39,479 bases of DNA from an uncultured Fluviicola sp. Its GTDB lineage: Bacteria; Bacteroidota; Bacteroidia; Flavobacteriales_D; Crocinitomicaceae. Under the pieces are notes generated by a model. The model searched no databases. It worked only from the letters and a program-made list of their open reading frames with translations, and was not told the origin of the DNA. The position numbers and the translations under genes were made by a program. This document shows, piece after piece, positions 5,676 to 31,430 of the stretch. Each line of letters opens with the position of its first letter. The stretch's first letter is position 1. Location: NCBI RefSeq assembly GCF_902168135.1, contig NZ_CABHOL010000042.1, forward strand, positions 1-39,479, given 5' to 3'.

Positions 5676-7730
5676 ATGAAAAATTTAATTAAATATTTAG
5701 TGGTGGTGCTTCCGTTTGGAACGGTCTTCGCTTCAAGTCACAGAGAAGCACCGCTAATTGCAAATGATCCACTTGCAGATAATACGGATTTGTACGCTTT
5801 TAAGAGCCCGAACGATCCGAATTCAATTACCATTATTGCAAATTATGTTCCTTTGCAAGTGCCGCATGGAGGACCTAATTACTATAGTTTCGGTGAAAAT
5901 ATCCGATATGAGATCCATATTGAAAATGATGGGACTGCCGGTGATGACATCACTTACAGATTCACGTTTTCTCAAACAAATGAAGATCCCACAACGTTTT
6001 TTGATATCCGTTTAGGTGCAGAGAATCACAAAACGACGTACCTGATGGAACGTAGTATTAATGGAGGTCCTTTCACTACTGTCATTGCTGCAGGAACTGT
6101 TCCTCCGCCTAATATCGGTGCGCGTTCCATCGAAAACAATGTTGTTGGATTGGGTGATACTTACCAAAACTTGATGAGCAGTGCAATCGAAACTACAGGT
6201 ATGAATGAAAAAGTGTTCTGTGGTCCTTCGGATGATCCGTTCTTCGTGGATTTGGGAGGTATTTTCGATTTGGGTGACGCTCCGCGTCAAAACGGAGGTA
6301 CTCCGGATGATGGACTTAAATGTTTGAATGTAAGCACGATTGCTATCCAGGTGCCGGTTTCTGTTTTGCAGAAAAATGGCCAGCCTGTAAGTGCAGCTGC
6401 TAATATTCTGGACAGCGATTACATCATTGGTGTATGGGCATCTGCCAGCCGCCAGGAAACACGTACCTTAAATCCTTCAACGGGGGAATTTGCTGAATCT
6501 GGCAACTGGATTCAGGTTTCACGCCTGGGAATGCCATTGACAAACGAGGCTGTGATTCCGGTTGGACAAAAGGACGAGTGGAATTCAAGAACTCCTTACA
6601 ATGAAAACCCGGCAATGGAAGATAATTTCTGTAACCCGGAATTGGCTTTGTACATGGATGACGATCTGTTCGGAGCAGCAGTTCCTGCATTTTCTCCCTT
6701 AAGAATTCAGCGCAATTCATTGCAGTCATTCGATTTCGGAAATACGCACGATGGTTTATGGCCGTTACGCGCTACAAATGCAGGAGCGGGGACAGCTCTG
6801 GATACTTTGTTATTCGGAAATTACCTGCTTCGCGAGGGGAAACCGCGTTCTGTAGATATCCTGCCGATTTTCCATACAGGTGTTCCAAACCTGGCACCTT
6901 ATCAACTGGCGACAGGTAAAAACGGAAACCCGCTGGCTGTAGGAAAACCGTTTATTAACAACTTCCTGCCGACTTTCGGTGATATGCTGCGTTTGAATAT
7001 GGCAGTTCCGGCAACTCCGCGAAATTCTCCTGAATTTAGTTCTTTAGGATTGGTGCAGGCAGCAGTTTTGGGATTGACACAAGCTCCTTATAACACCAAT
7101 GCCAATTTGGAGTTTATCCCGAATATGGATGGATTCCCGAACGGACGCCGTTTGGAGGATGACGTAACACGTATTGAATTACAGGCAGTTGGTGGTGTCG
7201 TATTGGCAGCAATTGGTTTGTGGTACGACGATTACACGGCAGGCGGACCGAATCCGGTTACAGCTGATTTGTTAGGTGTTTTGACCTATTCAACTGGTGT
7301 TGAGGAAAATGATGTGGCATTTAGCAGCACCTTTCCTTATGTTGCCGCTCCGCATCGTGGAACAGATAATTGTTTGGGTAAACCATACAACTATACGCAA
7401 CCTGCAATCCTTCCGCCTTCTACTACTGTAGGATTAACGGAAAACTCTGTAAATGCTGAAAAATACGCCATTAAAGCGTATCCGAATCCGTTTACAAGTT
7501 CTGTTAGTTTTGAATATAACTTAGATACAGATGCGCAGGTTGAGATTCGTCTGTTTACCTTATCGGGTCAGTTAGTTGGAACGGTTTTACCGATTACCAA
7601 GCAATCGTCCGGTAAGCATACGCAAACGTTAAATACTTCAACGCTCTCGGATGGGGTTTATTACGCACGTGTAAACATCAAAAGCCAGAAAGGAAAAGCA
7701 AGCAAATTGGTGAAGGTGGTAAAATCGTAA
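5676..7730 (+). CDS. DUF4331 domain-containing protein with T9SS C-terminal sorting domain (copy 2)
   Basis: A 684-residue paralogue of the upstream gene, with a short signal peptide (cleavage near VFAS) and the same SSHREAP mature start. The DUF4331 blocks follow in the same order (CGPSDDPFFVDLGGIFDLG; NGRRLEDDVTRIELQAVGG). After about residue 565 comes a linker and then a type A sorting domain: YAIKAYPNPFTSSVSFEY, VEIRLFTLSGQLVG, LSDGVYYARVN and a basic tail SKLVKVVKS. In Bacteroidota such domains direct export across the outer membrane by the type IX system, with cell-surface attachment or release. The pair looks like a tandem duplication that diverged, with only this copy keeping or gaining the surface-export domain. 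The gene is followed by a strong hairpin at 7744-7785. Confidence 0.94.
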   Translation: MKNLIKYLVVVLPFGTVFASSHREAPLIANDPLADNTDLYAFKSPNDPNSITIIANYVPLQVPHGGPNYYSFGENIRYEIHIENDGTAGDDITYRFTFSQTNEDPTTFFDIRLGAENHKTTYLMERSINGGPFTTVIAAGTVPPPNIGARSIENNVVGLGDTYQNLMSSAIETTGMNEKVFCGPSDDPFFVDLGGIFDLGDAPRQNGGTPDDGLKCLNVSTIAIQVPVSVLQKNGQPVSAAANILDSDYIIGVWASASRQETRTLNPSTGEFAESGNWIQVSRLGMPLTNEAVIPVGQKDEWNSRTPYNENPAMEDNFCNPELALYMDDDLFGAAVPAFSPLRIQRNSLQSFDFGNTHDGLWPLRATNAGAGTALDTLLFGNYLLREGKPRSVDILPIFHTGVPNLAPYQLATGKNGNPLAVGKPFINNFLPTFGDMLRLNMAVPATPRNSPEFSSLGLVQAAVLGLTQAPYNTNANLEFIPNMDGFPNGRRLEDDVTRIELQAVGGVVLAAIGLWYDDYTAGGPNPVTADLLGVLTYSTGVEENDVAFSSTFPYVAAPHRGTDNCLGKPYNYTQPAILPPSTTVGLTENSVNAEKYAIKAYPNPFTSSVSFEYNLDTDAQVEIRLFTLSGQLVGTVLPITKQSSGKHTQTLNTSTLSDGVYYARVNIKSQKGKASKLVKVVKS

Positions 7731-26192: not shown

Positions 26193-27605
26193 TTATTTCA
26201 GTTTCCGTGTTACAATGCGTGCACGCATCTGTTGTACTTCACAGGTAGGACAAGTTTTAAGAAATTCAATAGCAACTATCGTTGCCTCATTACCGCCTCC
26301 TGTTAATCGATACAAACCACTTTTGAAGACTTTACATTCTTTGCAGATTGATTCCGGATTTTCAAAGATGGGTTTTAGATATTCTGCTTTGAGACTCGAC
26401 AAGCGCTCATCAAAAAACAAGGCGGCACTTGATGGAGAAGTTATCAGTAGATTGACATCTTTTTCAACATGCATTTCTAGTTGATCGCTTCCCAGACAAT
26501 CGACGGTCAACAGATCTTTTTCATTGATCACAAAAAAATGCCTCAACTCTCCGGCATCGTAATAACTCAATTTTGGGGGAGCTATTCCAAATGTCATAAT
26601 CTCGTCCGGAATAGCGATATCAGTGAGTTTAAAGTCTGATTTTTCATGGATTTCAAGTACTTTATAATTGGCGACTCTATTTTTTCCTTCCCAAACACCA
26701 AAACCAAAGTAAAAAGCAATCCCGGACTTTGCAGGATCTGAAACAACTTCCATTCTGCCGATTGCCGGTGAAGCACCTTTCGGCATTTCTAATTGATAAG
26801 AAAATTCTTTTGCTTCTAAAGACGTGGTCAGGTCTACCGACCATACATCAACTGTGATTTGTTTTGTTTTGGGAATGGTATAAGTATAAGCGAAATACAG
26901 TTTGTTTTCAATAGAACCTATAAATCTTGCTGAGGTATATTCTTCTTCGCAAGCAGGAACTTTATTAATCAGATGAACAGAGACTTCAACTTTGTTGGTT
27001 GACGGATTCAGAACGATTCGCTTCACACAGTTTTCCAAAATTCCCTTTCCTGGTTTAGCTGGGTTAGTTACTGATTTACTGACTTTCTTCATTGAAACGA
27101 GGTATACAATGTCTTCGTCTTGAGTAATGTAACTGTCAGTATTGCTCAAAAAATAAGCTCCTTTCTGATAATTCTCACAGTCAGGATCATCAAACAGCAC
27201 ATGATTCACCTCTGTCCCCTTTGTTCCCAGTTTTTCAACCAGGATACTTCCGCATCCGGATATTCGTTTGTCTTCTTTACCTGACAGACCGTAATATTCA
27301 GGGAACAGTACATAGCGCGTATCGGTTTTAAGATCAATGATGATATTATCTGTGAGTAATGTTCTTACTTTGTAATTAATTTTACTAGCTGCATCTGCCT
27401 TGAACGGTTCCTCTTTAAGCATCCCATCTGCATTATAAGCATAAACCATTTCATTGTAAAAATTGATATCTAAAGAGGCATCATTGTAAAGATATGGAAC
27501 CGGATAGAATAGTTTATCCTTAGACTTCACATCAAATTCTACGGTTTGTGAATAGCCGAAAAATGCAAAAATCCAGAAAAGAAAAATAATAAACAGGTTT
27601 TTCAT
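26193..27605 (-). CDS. Exported protein of unknown function with C-terminal Cys pairs
   Basis: A 470-residue protein from the ATG at 27605 (MKNLFIIFLFWIFAFFGYSQ); an upstream in-frame codon at 27671 is not needed. The signal peptide ends near YSQ. The body is beta-rich with regular strands (for example VRTLLTDNIIIDLKTDTRYVLFPEYYGL and KLYFAYTYTIPKTKQITVDVWSVDL), suggesting a propeller or similar fold. The C-terminus has ICKECKVFKSGLYRLTG and KTCPTCEVQQM, two Cys-x-x-Cys pairs that could bind a metal or form disulfides. No family is recognised. It is the promoter-proximal gene of a unit with the MHS permease. A -7-like TACTTTCG lies 20 bases upstream. Confidence 0.8.
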   Translation of the reverse strand: MKNLFIIFLFWIFAFFGYSQTVEFDVKSKDKLFYPVPYLYNDASLDINFYNEMVYAYNADGMLKEEPFKADAASKINYKVRTLLTDNIIIDLKTDTRYVLFPEYYGLSGKEDKRISGCGSILVEKLGTKGTEVNHVLFDDPDCENYQKGAYFLSNTDSYITQDEDIVYLVSMKKVSKSVTNPAKPGKGILENCVKRIVLNPSTNKVEVSVHLINKVPACEEEYTSARFIGSIENKLYFAYTYTIPKTKQITVDVWSVDLTTSLEAKEFSYQLEMPKGASPAIGRMEVVSDPAKSGIAFYFGFGVWEGKNRVANYKVLEIHEKSDFKLTDIAIPDEIMTFGIAPPKLSYYDAGELRHFFVINEKDLLTVDCLGSDQLEMHVEKDVNLLITSPSSAALFFDERLSSLKAEYLKPIFENPESICKECKVFKSGLYRLTGGGNEATIVAIEFLKTCPTCEVQQMRARIVTRKLK

Positions 27606-27624
27606 AACATCATTATTACAAATA

Positions 27625-27632
27625 CGAAAGTA
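27625..27632 (-). promoter_or_regulatory. Putative -7 element of the 26193-27605 gene
   Basis: Minus-strand TACTTTCG (27632-27625), 7 of 8 matches to TAnnTTTG, 20 bases before the ATG at 27605. Confidence 0.4.
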
Positions 27633-27825
27633 GTTCTTATATATGAAACGTAAAAGATCAGTTTGTTTCAATTATCGAATACAAACTTAAGTACATAAAA
27701 TGCTTTTTTTTGTAAATTTATTTTTCCTGAAAGCATTGATTTTACTGGGGTTTCAAACTTTTTTCACTAGACCTTATAGGACGTAAATACACTACGTTCT
27801 ACCCCCGTATCTTTGTCTTATCAAA

Positions 27826-27879
27826 ATGAAAACAATGAGACAATTTCTAAGGACAATGAACAACCGCTCCATTTACTAA
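27826..27879 (+). CDS. 17-residue basic peptide ORF in the small transcript
   Basis: ATG at 27826, eleven bases after the -7 element, encodes MKTMRQFLRTMNNRSIY and stops with TAA at 27877-27879. The peptide is basic. The ATG is close to the predicted +1, giving a very short leader. It could be a real small protein, a leader peptide controlling the RNA downstream, or chance. Confidence 0.35.
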   Translation: MKTMRQFLRTMNNRSIY

Positions 27880-27990
27880 TCAGCTTAACCTAAATCACCA
27901 CTAACCGACCCACTATTCACCAACCACCTTACCACTGTTAGATGAAACCTAACCACTATTCATCTTCCCAACCAACCACTACTGCCTGAC

Positions 27991-28029
27991 AAAAAGCAGT
28001 GAATTAGATTACTGATTCACTGCTTTTTT
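27991..28029 (+). terminator. Strong intrinsic terminator ending the small transcript
   Basis: AAAAAGCAGTGAAT (27991-28004) pairs perfectly over 14 bp with ATTCACTGCTTTTT (28015-28028), loop of 10, T6 tail (28024-28029). No annotated long gene lies directly upstream, which argues that an independent transcript ends here. Confidence 0.88.
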
Positions 28030-28101: not shown

Positions 28102-28626
28102 ATGGTTTACCTGCAATACTTCCATACTCCTTACGGAGAACTCGTTCTCGGAGAATCCGGTGGAGAATTGTGTTTATGCGACTGGAAATACCGCAAAATG
28201 CGCGACCAGGTCGATAACCGGATTCAAACTGCACTGAATGCCGAGTTTAAGCTCGAAGAAACCGAATTGCTGAATGAAACGAAATCACAGCTCAATGAGT
28301 ACTTTGCCAAAGAACGTACAACCTTTGATCTTCCGCTGTTATTTGTAGGAAGTGATTTCCAGAAATCCGTTTGGGAAAAACTGCTGACTATCCCTTACGG
28401 AAAAACGGTCAGTTACCTGGAGCTGTCACGTATTCTTGGAGATGAAAAAGCCATCCGTGCAGTAGCAACAGCAAACGGTGCAAACGCTATTTCGATCATT
28501 GTTCCTTGTCACCGGGTCATAGGAAGTGACGGCAGCCTTACCGGTTACGCCGGCGGTTTGAATGCCAAGCAAAAACTCCTTCAATTGGAGGGGATGAACT
28601 TCGGTGAGCAATTGGAATTGTTTTAG
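28102..28626 (+). CDS. ogt: Methylated-DNA--[protein]-cysteine S-methyltransferase
   Basis: A 174-residue cytosolic repair protein that transfers the alkyl group of O6-methylguanine (or O4-methylthymine) to its own cysteine. The active site IIVPCHRVIGSDGSLTGYAGG carries nucleophile Cys136, and the HTH and Arg finger are in FQKSVWEKLLTIPYGKTVSYLELSRILG and AIRAVATANGANA. The N-terminal ribonuclease-like domain (about 1-75) is present without an Ada regulatory domain, so this is the stand-alone Ogt type. It has its own promoter after the terminator at 27991-28029 and appears monocistronic. Confidence 0.96.
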   Translation: MVYLQYFHTPYGELVLGESGGELCLCDWKYRKMRDQVDNRIQTALNAEFKLEETELLNETKSQLNEYFAKERTTFDLPLLFVGSDFQKSVWEKLLTIPYGKTVSYLELSRILGDEKAIRAVATANGANAISIIVPCHRVIGSDGSLTGYAGGLNAKQKLLQLEGMNFGEQLELF

Positions 28627-28670: not shown

Positions 28671-28706
28671 ATCGTAAAAAAATTACGATCAAATAGTTTA
28701 CCTTTG
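28671..28706 (+). promoter_or_regulatory. Promoter with overlapping inverted repeat before the 28731 gene
   Basis: TACCTTTG (28699-28706) is a perfect -7 element, 25 bases before the ATG at 28731. Upstream, ATCGTAA (28671-28677) and TTACGAT (28683-28689) form a perfect 7-bp inverted repeat separated by AAAAA, at the -33 position. This is the geometry of a repressor or activator site. Confidence 0.55.
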
Positions 28707-28730: not shown

Positions 28731-31430
28731 ATGAGAAACCTTTATCTGGTCGGTCTATTGACCGTCTTTTCGTGGCAGGCTATGTCACAAACCTTTCAAA
28801 AATCTTTGGAGCCTACCGGGGTCGTTCCTATTACAACTTCTTCAACTTACAATCCGGGGTATTCAGTTTACAACAATTACAATAACAAGCTTCACAATGT
28901 AGAGGCTCCTTTTCTGAACGGTTTGCTGGAAATGTATGAAGCAACTAAAGATCCGGTGTATTTGGATCGTTTCATGGAGCATGCCTATAATGTGATTGAA
29001 CGAAGAGACGATGCGTTAGCGCTTGATCCGAGTACTCCTTTAGCAGGAATGAGCGGTGTTACTAATCCTATTCCACCCGGCGGACAAATGGCATGGTCTG
29101 GACGAATAGCGCCATCAACATATTGGGTCATAGATGCAGTTAACCAGGGAACTATTACTTTCCCATTGGCAAAGTTCGCATATATGATTAAGGTGAAGTA
29201 CCCTGCGCTTCAATCACGTTTGGCGCCTGCTTCCATCGCGGGCTGGGATGCCACGGGCTGGTATTATCTGAGTAATTTTGCTGATTGTGCCGAATTTTTG
29301 AAAATAAAGGCTAATCAGACTTTAAAAGATTATATGCATGCTGATTGGGTCGCTGCTTTAGGATTGTATCGTTACGATGCAGATACTAATCCTACAGATG
29401 GTATTCATAATTGGCAGCCTTTGATCCCGAATCAAATGGCGTCTATTGGACGATCGCATACCTACATGTATAAAATCTATGAATTTGAAGGAAATGTTGT
29501 ACAAAGAGATTATTACCTGGAAAAAATTCAAAAAATGGCATCCCGTTTCATGGATCATTCGAATTATCTCTTTACGAGAAATGTAACCAATCATATTATT
29601 AGCTGGAGATATATGAATCCAAGTTCCCCAATGGAGGATATTGCTCATGGACAACTGATTATGGAATTTGCAGATTTATGTAATTTATTTAACATCAAAA
29701 AGTCAGACGGGATTACCCCAATTTTTGACAATGCTTTGATGTATGATTTTGCCAATACATTTAAAGTGAAATTTATGCAAAATATGCCTTTGAAGTATTC
29801 TATGAGTATTACCGGCTGGGATGGAGATCAAACCCAATTAGTATTAAGTGGAAACGTACAATATCCGGAAGGAAGTGTTGAAAGGTACGATCAATATATG
29901 AATGCCGGGAGATACCTGTTCCTGGCCAGACATATCCCGGATATTTATAACATGATTGCGGATTATTTTTATGAATTCGGGCTGTATGGGCCTGCAACCT
30001 ATCCGGTCTATACAAGTGATGTTTCCGGTCAGTGCAGAGGTATTGACGCCGTAGGACAATTGGCAAACGGCAGAACAGGTTTTTCACCCGTTTTCAAAAA
30101 CTACCTGGATATCCGCTCTGTAAAACGTACACCAACATATCATACAGGAAGCGATTTAACGGCCGGTACGGTTTGGAAAGCAGTAGCAGCAGGAAAGTTT
30201 GACGCTGCTAAAACTGCAGATTTGTTTGTGACTGCTAATGCTGAAGGGAAAATCCAACTACGCGAATTTGATCCGACAACTAAAAAGATCAGCAACAGTT
30301 TGTCTACTTATATCAATTATCTTGCAGATTGGGGTGGGATAACTGCAGGTGATTTCATAGCAGGAAATAACCAATCTGAGTTTGTAGCGTTTAATAAAAC
30401 GGATAAGAAACTTTACTTATTCCGTTACGATGGAACCGGGATTGTGTTGATAGCCTCTTTTGCTACCAATATTAATTGGGCAGGTATTGCATCCGGTAAT
30501 CTGGATGCTTCTACAACGGATGAACTTGTTCTTCTTTCAAAAGACAATGGACAGGTTTATGGTTACCGCATTAACTTTTTACCATTGGGGGGCGGAGTTT
30601 ATACCTTAAATGGTTTCTCAATAACCAATGCGTCCACTTCCACTTATGTGGTTTCGGAGGCTGCTAAAATTGCAGTTGGTAACCTGGATAAAAACCTTGC
30701 AAACGGGTTGGAAATCGTGACTTTGAACAATAACAACGGCTCTGATTACAACATCAAAGTATTGAACTACACATTCTCCGGATCCAATATGACCTTCTCG
30801 TCTGCAATTCCTTACACAGGAACTACCGGAAACTATAGCCAGTGGGACGGATTAACAACAGGAGATTTCAATGCGGATGGTTATGATGAGATCATGCTGC
30901 ACCGCGATTATGACGGGGATTTCCACATGCAGTACCTGGACGGCGGAGTAGTTAAATCGCTTTTCAAAGAGCATTTTCCAACAAATTGGGATTTGGGAAT
31001 CATGTGCAGTACTTCTTTTCCGGGAAGCACGACTAAACATTTGATCAGTTTGCGCAACAATGACGGGCATATTTTTGCTTTTCTTCCTTATCAGCTTCCT
31101 GCCATTACAAGTCGTCCTTTGGAACCGGAAGGTCCCGGAGGAGGGGTTGAAGGAATGATGCAGCATCCTGTTCCGGAGAAAGAAGATAGAATGAGTGATT
31201 TGGCAGTTTCTCCAAATCCAACGGATGGAATGATATATGTGGATCTGGCTGAAAAATCAGCAACAGAAATGACCGTAATTTCTTCTTTAGGACAGGTTAT
31301 TCTGAAAATGAAGATTCCGGATGCTACCAGAAATCAAAAAATAGATTTGTCAGATTATCCTGCGGGAATCTACTTGTTAAAAGTAGAAACGAATGAAGGG
31401 GTAATTACCAAAAAAATCTGGAAAGAATAA
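28731..31430 (+). CDS. Large T9SS-exported protein with helical N-terminal domain and FG-GAP/VCBS-like repeats
   Basis: An 899-residue protein with a signal peptide (VGLLTVFSWQAMSQ). Residues about 25-440 are helical with many aromatic residues (NVEAPFLNGLLEMYEATKDPVYLDRFMEHAYNVIERRDD; MASRFMDHSNYLF), like an alpha/alpha-toroid carbohydrate-active fold, but no catalytic motif is assigned. From about 480 there are FG-GAP/VCBS-like blocks (DWGGITAGDFIAGNNQSEFVAF, NWAGIASGNLDASTTDELVLLS, KIAVGNLDKN..GLEIVTLN, QWDGLTTGDFNADGYDEIMLHRDYDGD). These end in a type A sorting domain: LAVSPNPTDGMIYVDL, SSLGQVIL, YPAGIYLLKVET. It is therefore likely exported to the surface or medium and may act on glycans. 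It has its own promoter and terminator. Confidence 0.88.
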   Translation: MRNLYLVGLLTVFSWQAMSQTFQKSLEPTGVVPITTSSTYNPGYSVYNNYNNKLHNVEAPFLNGLLEMYEATKDPVYLDRFMEHAYNVIERRDDALALDPSTPLAGMSGVTNPIPPGGQMAWSGRIAPSTYWVIDAVNQGTITFPLAKFAYMIKVKYPALQSRLAPASIAGWDATGWYYLSNFADCAEFLKIKANQTLKDYMHADWVAALGLYRYDADTNPTDGIHNWQPLIPNQMASIGRSHTYMYKIYEFEGNVVQRDYYLEKIQKMASRFMDHSNYLFTRNVTNHIISWRYMNPSSPMEDIAHGQLIMEFADLCNLFNIKKSDGITPIFDNALMYDFANTFKVKFMQNMPLKYSMSITGWDGDQTQLVLSGNVQYPEGSVERYDQYMNAGRYLFLARHIPDIYNMIADYFYEFGLYGPATYPVYTSDVSGQCRGIDAVGQLANGRTGFSPVFKNYLDIRSVKRTPTYHTGSDLTAGTVWKAVAAGKFDAAKTADLFVTANAEGKIQLREFDPTTKKISNSLSTYINYLADWGGITAGDFIAGNNQSEFVAFNKTDKKLYLFRYDGTGIVLIASFATNINWAGIASGNLDASTTDELVLLSKDNGQVYGYRINFLPLGGGVYTLNGFSITNASTSTYVVSEAAKIAVGNLDKNLANGLEIVTLNNNNGSDYNIKVLNYTFSGSNMTFSSAIPYTGTTGNYSQWDGLTTGDFNADGYDEIMLHRDYDGDFHMQYLDGGVVKSLFKEHFPTNWDLGIMCSTSFPGSTTKHLISLRNNDGHIFAFLPYQLPAITSRPLEPEGPGGGVEGMMQHPVPEKEDRMSDLAVSPNPTDGMIYVDLAEKSATEMTVISSLGQVILKMKIPDATRNQKIDLSDYPAGIYLLKVETNEGVITKKIWKE

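Follow-up and report, generated by a model that had tools for sequence, protein, structure and literature searches.

The window, that is, the whole analysed stretch of 39,479 nt, is contig C42 of genome G000, one of the 14 genomes of the genus that were compared. In the interval that separates ogt (28102-28626, plus strand; methylated-DNA-protein cysteine methyltransferase, TIGR00589 E 1.1e-31, PF01035 E 1.1e-32) from a gene on the minus strand (26193-27671) it contains a promoter/terminator unit from which a noncoding RNA of about 209 nt is predicted to be read on the plus strand (27821-28029). We inferred the start of this RNA from a -7 promoter element, TATCTTTG (27808-27815, plus strand), whose letters are identical in G002, G012, G007, G008 and G011 and which fits TAnnTTTG, the -7 form of Bacteroidota. 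Its end is given by an intrinsic terminator hairpin of 17 pairs followed by T's (27991-28028, plus strand). A sequence-only reading of this DNA had proposed a small RNA here from these two elements and the lack of a long gene; both elements were located, and 27821-28029 holds no long ORF, only an ATG frame of 17 aa. No TTTG element at -33 was seen by eye upstream of the -7 element, and that place is occupied by the palindrome AGGACGTAAATACACTACGTTCT. A sigma-70 promoter scan, which does not cover the Bacteroidota promoter type, listed no promoter at 27808-27815.

The body of the RNA (27880-27989) consists of 7 G, 42 C, 36 A and 25 T in 110 bases. It is C/A-rich and G-poor, not free of G (the claim had been almost free); an equally low G or C count is found in 44 of the 39,369 overlapping 110-base segments, those at the locus itself included. 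The claimed repeat, CCACTATTCA, stands at exactly 27910 and 27953. The predicted fold has a z-score of -5.15, the stable part being the terminator. Outside it the RNA is mostly unpaired, with a mean unpaired probability of 0.56 to 0.91 in six stretches versus 0.13 in the terminator. The RNA had been said to resemble no nameable family, and indeed Rfam gave no match in the window at the gathering score. Below that threshold there were only seven weak matches, most of them on the terminator (mir-268, for instance), and a known Rfam family was therefore rejected.

The sequence-only reading had expected a genuine small RNA to be conserved in the nearest relatives. A DNA search of 59 genomes (G000 and 13 others of the genus among them) matched the locus in four of these 13, with E-values from 4.5e-118 to 5.7e-47. 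The four, all genus members, are G002 (92% identity to the window RNA), G012 (87%), G007 (76%) and G008 (75%), and together with G000 their homologous RNAs form one lineage. Aligned in the right orientation, they keep the palindromic box, the -7 element and several C/A-rich blocks. The match in G011 covers the promoter only: box and -7 element are common, the body is not.

The palindrome upstream of the -7 element is a recA-type operator (27778-27800), to which the sequence-only reading had made no reference; its core, CGTAA-N5-YTACG at 27782-27796, has one imperfect arm (CTACG). Palindromes of the CGTAA-N5-TTACG type stand at the promoter of recA in each of the 14 genus genomes (G011 reads CATAA), and the distance from the box start to the -7 element is 27 bases at recA and 26 at the window RNA. 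The combined pattern of box, spacing and -7 element has 58 sites in the 14 genomes, versus none for a reversed-pattern control. Behind the boxes lie recA, dinB (preceded by the box in six genomes), two cytosine-methylase-like genes (one of them checked) and other frames, as well as several stretches lacking a 50-aa frame; the RecA and IMS domains were confirmed with Pfam for one sequence each, that of G000. The operator, at a like promoter position, is thus common to the window RNA, recA and the error-prone polymerase gene. Together, recA and dinB usually mark an SOS regulon, and as the box is shared with both genes we call it SOS-type. Palindromic boxes with a 5-base spacer are described before recA and dinB in non-canonical LexA regulons of Bacteroidetes (PMC8565304). 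Spacer and placement agree with the window box, but its sequence matches neither of the main LexA motifs given in the available account of those regulons, CTAA-N5-TTAG and GGA-N5-TCC.

The sole S24-type protein found in G000 (L207, C18:102716) combines HTH_3 with an S24 domain that was just over the cut-off in one scan and just under it in another. By eye it has an Ala-Gly (RAGY) site, which makes it a candidate non-canonical LexA; its own promoter is without a recA-type box, and GATTA-N5-TAATC is seen there by eye. A second recA-type box with a -7 element (CGTAAAAAAATTACG ... TACCTTTG; 28673-28706, plus strand) precedes the gene of a T9SS-sorted protein (28731-31430) in the window, and G007 has a similar T9SS-sorted-type gene and box (L254).

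A 17-mer of the RNA, AACCTAACCACTATTCA (27946-27962), recurs as its reverse complement in many relatives, just before terminators at the inspected loci, and on this ground we defined sRNA family A. Its members comprise a -7 element, a variable 5' part, TTCAGTGAATAGTGGTTAGGTTAGGTTA and a terminator, and end in …CAGUGAAUAGUGGUUAGGUUAGGUUA-terminator. Of 120 genomes from the taxonomic family, 44 contain the A 16-mer (the matches in the window-type RNAs of G000 and G007 included), with no control matches. The A 20-mer matches 77 stretches in the genome collection, whose titles are mostly Fluviicola, Crocinitomicaceae, Flavobacteriales or Bacteroidetes, with some others. Scoring 150 candidates per genome with a model that uses sequence only and misaligns the hairpins, we detected A in 13 of the 14 genus genomes with E-values no higher than 1.3e-14 (best value in G010, 0.017). 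The terminator stem has a compensatory change in 8 of 9 pairs; 65 distinct rows were kept, of which 49 sequences and then 30 were picked by hand for the alignments. G000 has a stand-alone A sRNA at C20:64177 and another copy directly after an OmpA/PD40-domain gene at C41. These are the only exact 17-mer complements in that genome besides the site in the window RNA; a two-mismatch variant follows a reading frame at C24. Rfam at the gathering score gave no match in nine loci with A copies, and a relation of the 17-mer to tRNA or tmRNA was rejected, none being found in three loci scanned. Three A 16-mer matches stand in tandem at C17:13444-13878 of G134.

A second, multi-copy family, B, begins with GAUUUAGGUGGUUAGGUUAGGUUGAUUAG; in G000 it starts a few bases after a -7 element with GATTTAGGTGGTTAGGTTAGGTTGATTAGTGAATGGAG, and its 3' end is a terminator. 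The stretch GTGGTTAGGTTAGGTT, also given as GUGGUUAGGUUAGGUU, is common to both families. When the seed copies of the genus were classified, 39 were B, 19 were A and 9 were others (two of the 9 belonging to an RNA of G001 described below), one further B copy in G013 having been merged as a duplicate context outside the 39. B is present in all 14 genus genomes and A in 13. Its alignment has 34 rows, 10 of 44 sequences having been dropped by hand, mostly near-identical ones; the 10 include L279, one of the two sequences that have no -7 match. Compensatory changes occur in 12 of 16 pairs of the B terminator, and nine other predicted pairs fall in the invariant B seed and are uninformative either way. 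TAnnTT, a loose pattern, lies at most 16 nt upstream of 42 of the 44 B sequences. As the rows of both families were picked by seed, seed invariance is partly a matter of selection; the stems are not. Seven loci that hold B copies or further box RNAs likewise gave no Rfam match at the gathering score. Because of the compensatory changes in the terminator stems, the E-values of A and the TAnnTT upstream of B, both families look like real sRNAs.

Further copies were noted in passing. Of three viral contigs from IMG/VR (L374, L375 and L376), two have a B-type sRNA and the third has an A-type seed followed by a terminator; L375 has phage-like genes by eye. Four B copies stand in tandem in G018 (L021, 1487-2301). 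In G000 (L305, C52:58300-59800) and G002 (L360, C6) several seed-like copies (TGGTTAGGTTAG, CGGTTAGGTTAAG) occur per stretch, unlike A and B.

The window RNA is predicted to pair with both families. Its anti-B site (27867-27893, plus strand) gives 27 consecutive pairs (24 Watson-Crick, 3 G-U, -39.6 kcal/mol), and a 12-nt match to A (27882-27893, plus strand; 10 Watson-Crick) overlaps it. The main anti-A site, AACCTAACCACTATTCAT (27946-27963, plus strand), gives 18 pairs (17 Watson-Crick, -26.7 kcal/mol), and 12 pairs with B are also predicted there (27946-27957). Further anti-A sites, all on the plus strand, are CCACTATTCAC (27910-27920, 11 Watson-Crick pairs) and two weak ones, of 9 nt at 27931-27939 and of 8 nt, AACCACTA, at 27974-27981. 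The earlier idea that the unstructured C/A-rich body could pair with G/U-rich RNA is well supported at the sequence level by this complementarity and by the largely unpaired body, but the predicted partners are the sRNAs of families A and B instead of mRNA leaders. The body may also bind a protein, as that reading had allowed.

We compared this pairing with several backgrounds. When the RNA was dinucleotide-shuffled 300 times, no shuffle reached its B pairing (-48.4 kcal/mol, z -8.0) and one reached its pairing with A in the 60-nt form (-40.7, z -3.3); against 400 shuffled sRNA cores the z-scores were -5.1 for A and -7.2 for B (0/400 each). Among 786 overlapping 205-nt tiles from both strands of the window, the RNA locus is the best partner for A (-31.1 versus -24.6 for the runner-up) as well as for B (-48.4 versus -32.6). 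By comparison, for eleven control RNAs behind like boxes (recA, dinB and others) B pairing was reached by 12 to 230 of the 300 shuffles and A pairing by 11 to 285. The complementarity to the core, which we take as the pairing region of both sRNAs, is thus above chance. The four relatives retain the box plus the anti-sites: their B pairing was likewise reached by 0/300 shuffles, and the longest B helix at the anti-B site measures 26 nt in G002, 21 in G012, 19 in G008 and 14 in G007. In G012 the RNA is split inside the main anti-A site; its two parts are about 2 kb apart, and the DNA that separates them holds a 202-aa frame as well as a transposase gene of the IS110 family. Identical ends (TAATAAAATACAAACATAGGAG) are joined to TGGTTAGGTT at two places of that genome (L157, C16:207000-219000, junction at 7068; L352, C15:1471). 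One junction is in the RNA and one in an sRNA-like seed, with the IS110-family transposase gene by the first (L157); targeting of the seed is conceivable.

The 17-aa frame (27826-27879, plus strand; MRQF...SIY) was judged against this background. Its start and stop stay in frame without indels in five genomes, as a conserved micropeptide would require. In the part kept in relatives (27835-27879), however, codon differences summed over the 10 pairs of the five genomes are 4 synonymous versus 51 nonsynonymous, as expected of noncoding sequence in this one tested frame, and the conserved 3' end of the frame falls in the anti-B site. We therefore rejected the frame as coding; that the RNA encodes a micropeptide is extremely improbable.

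Other RNAs behind like boxes show no visible similarity to the window RNA, and some of them also match B. The one in G001 matches B at two sites, with 26 pairs at the first (25 Watson-Crick, -43.9) and 21 at the other. In G004 the box RNA of C237 scores 0/300 and 0/400 for B with helices of only 11-12, and that of C230 is weak (B 7/300 and 17/400; A 4/300 and 24/400). The box RNAs of G009 and G011, which are one lineage, score 0/300 and 0/400 for B with a longest helix of 10; their values for A (7/300 and 32/400 in G009; 6/300 and 6/400 in G011) are hardly beyond the best control (11/300, C125 of G002). Some complementarity to A or B is thus found behind the box in 9 of the 14 genus genomes and is strong in six (G000, G002, G007, G008, G012 and G001). 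With the exact box pattern, which misses boxes with altered letters, G003, G005, G006, G010 and G013 showed no box RNA carrying anti-sites. B is present in all five, and A in each of them except G010. About 480 nt, apparently noncoding and unlike the window RNA, are conserved behind a like box in G011 (L210/L175) and G009 (L230/L187).

These comparisons bear on the nearby repair gene. Since ogt starts only 73 bases past the terminator on the same strand, is a DNA-repair gene and also lies downstream of the RNA in G002 and G007, the RNA could be an ogt 5' leader, with a damage-type promoter driving the gene, the terminator acting as an attenuator and pairing with A or B setting read-through. 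But a different gene follows the RNA in G008 (L226), the insertion with the IS110-family gene separates RNA and ogt in G012, and in G001 no ATG ORF of at least 50 aa begins within 350 bases of the -7 element. The anti-sites remain in all three despite the altered downstream context, and we regard a leader function as unlikely. We hold it to be equally doubtful that the roles are reversed, the RNA having another job (e.g. protein binding) and being a target that A and B keep low in undamaged cells. Pairing works both ways, A and B occur widely, B is multi-copy, and the box RNA is found only in part of one genus, all of which this arrangement would accommodate. The RNAs of G000 type and G001 type, on the other hand, visibly share box and anti-sites, which fits pairing as the function itself.

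A search for other partners of the sRNAs gave little. The 11-nt complement of the core is not enriched in the 14 genomes (82 matches versus 129 control matches), and the search brought up no mRNA target for either sRNA family. Sixteen of the 82 matches were fetched. Eight represent the 3' end of a single coding gene, where the core strand reads W-L-G-stop; three more (L381, L382 and L390) look by eye like further seed-plus-terminator copies, and the other five lie within coding sequence. Among these five, the match in G009 (L389) is 41 bases downstream of a start codon, that of an epimerase-like frame, and was seen in that genome only. No start-codon site is repeated among the fetched matches, and mRNA start-codon targets were rejected. 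The lack of enrichment implies that mRNA targets, if any, are matched imperfectly, or that the core binds a protein. The latter option leads to a further explanation, in which the shared core GGUUAGGUUAGGUU is a protein-binding motif masked by the C/A-rich RNA. Besides the lack of enrichment, it would account for a core kept across different sRNA families and 3' ends, and it has a precedent in the Bacteroides RRM protein RbpB, which is described as binding a paralogous sRNA family (PMC11697453). The match nevertheless runs past the core into the B-specific flank (CTCCATTTACTAATCA) and hence points to pairing with B itself; we find masking of a protein site quite improbable.

Operator, promoter, terminator, complementarity and conservation are all supported by the sequence. 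We suggest that 27821-28029 is probably a noncoding, SOS-type, multi-site sponge RNA directed against sRNA families A and B. DNA damage would be expected to relieve the operator at the sponge promoter, as at recA and dinB, and the RNA would then be transcribed. Through its one long anti-B site and several anti-A sites, the sponge would block the pairing region of A and B, and for B also the 5' arm of the terminator stem. Titration or decay of the two sRNAs may follow, and this would relieve or alter whatever A and B regulate.

Sponges of sRNAs are already known. RosA of Bacillus subtilis, a sponge of RoxS and FsrA, is like the window RNA a dedicated sRNA whose promoter is regulated and which has at least two sRNAs as pairing partners (PMC8216469). 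As summarized there, RosA is repressed by CcpA (carbon control), belongs to another phylum and was demonstrated experimentally, whereas the window RNA has a recA-type operator and is known from its sequence. DinR of Klebsiella pneumoniae is an SOS-controlled sRNA (PMC10907235) and resembles our candidate in being a noncoding RNA under DNA-damage control (LexA for DinR, an SOS-type box here). It differs in arising from the dinI mRNA by processing, in depending on Hfq and in pairing with ftsZ mRNA, and the available part of that report does not present it as a sponge (PMC10907235). FopS/GibS of Bacteroides (PMC11697453, PMC7366714) are described as multi-copy Bacteroidota sRNAs with a conserved seed, as are A and B; a FopS sequence is reported in a phage, just as viral contigs carry A and B. 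By these descriptions FopS/GibS may be a counterpart of A and B, not of the sponge; the antagonist named for FopS is the protein RbpB. Among the open-access PMC articles listed by literature searches, no title or abstract opening presents an RNA sponge under DNA-damage-type control or one in Bacteroidota, nor does any title announce a small-RNA study of Fluviicola. An SOS-type multi-site sponge acting on the A and B families appears to be new, as do these sRNAs themselves.

With somewhat less confidence, we lean towards a broader view, in which unrelated RNAs behind the recA box of different species have each gained complementarity to one 16-nt core and damage switches a whole sRNA network off at the RNA level. 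The network would be family-wide, multi-copy and phage-carried, and the SOS-type response of Fluviicola would, on slightly better than even chances, have a noncoding arm. If the sponge reading is true, it would place an RNA sponge under DNA-damage-type control in Bacteroidota, add two conserved sRNA families to a phylum whose riboregulation is little known, and make it possible to test for convergence of unrelated RNAs on a single target.
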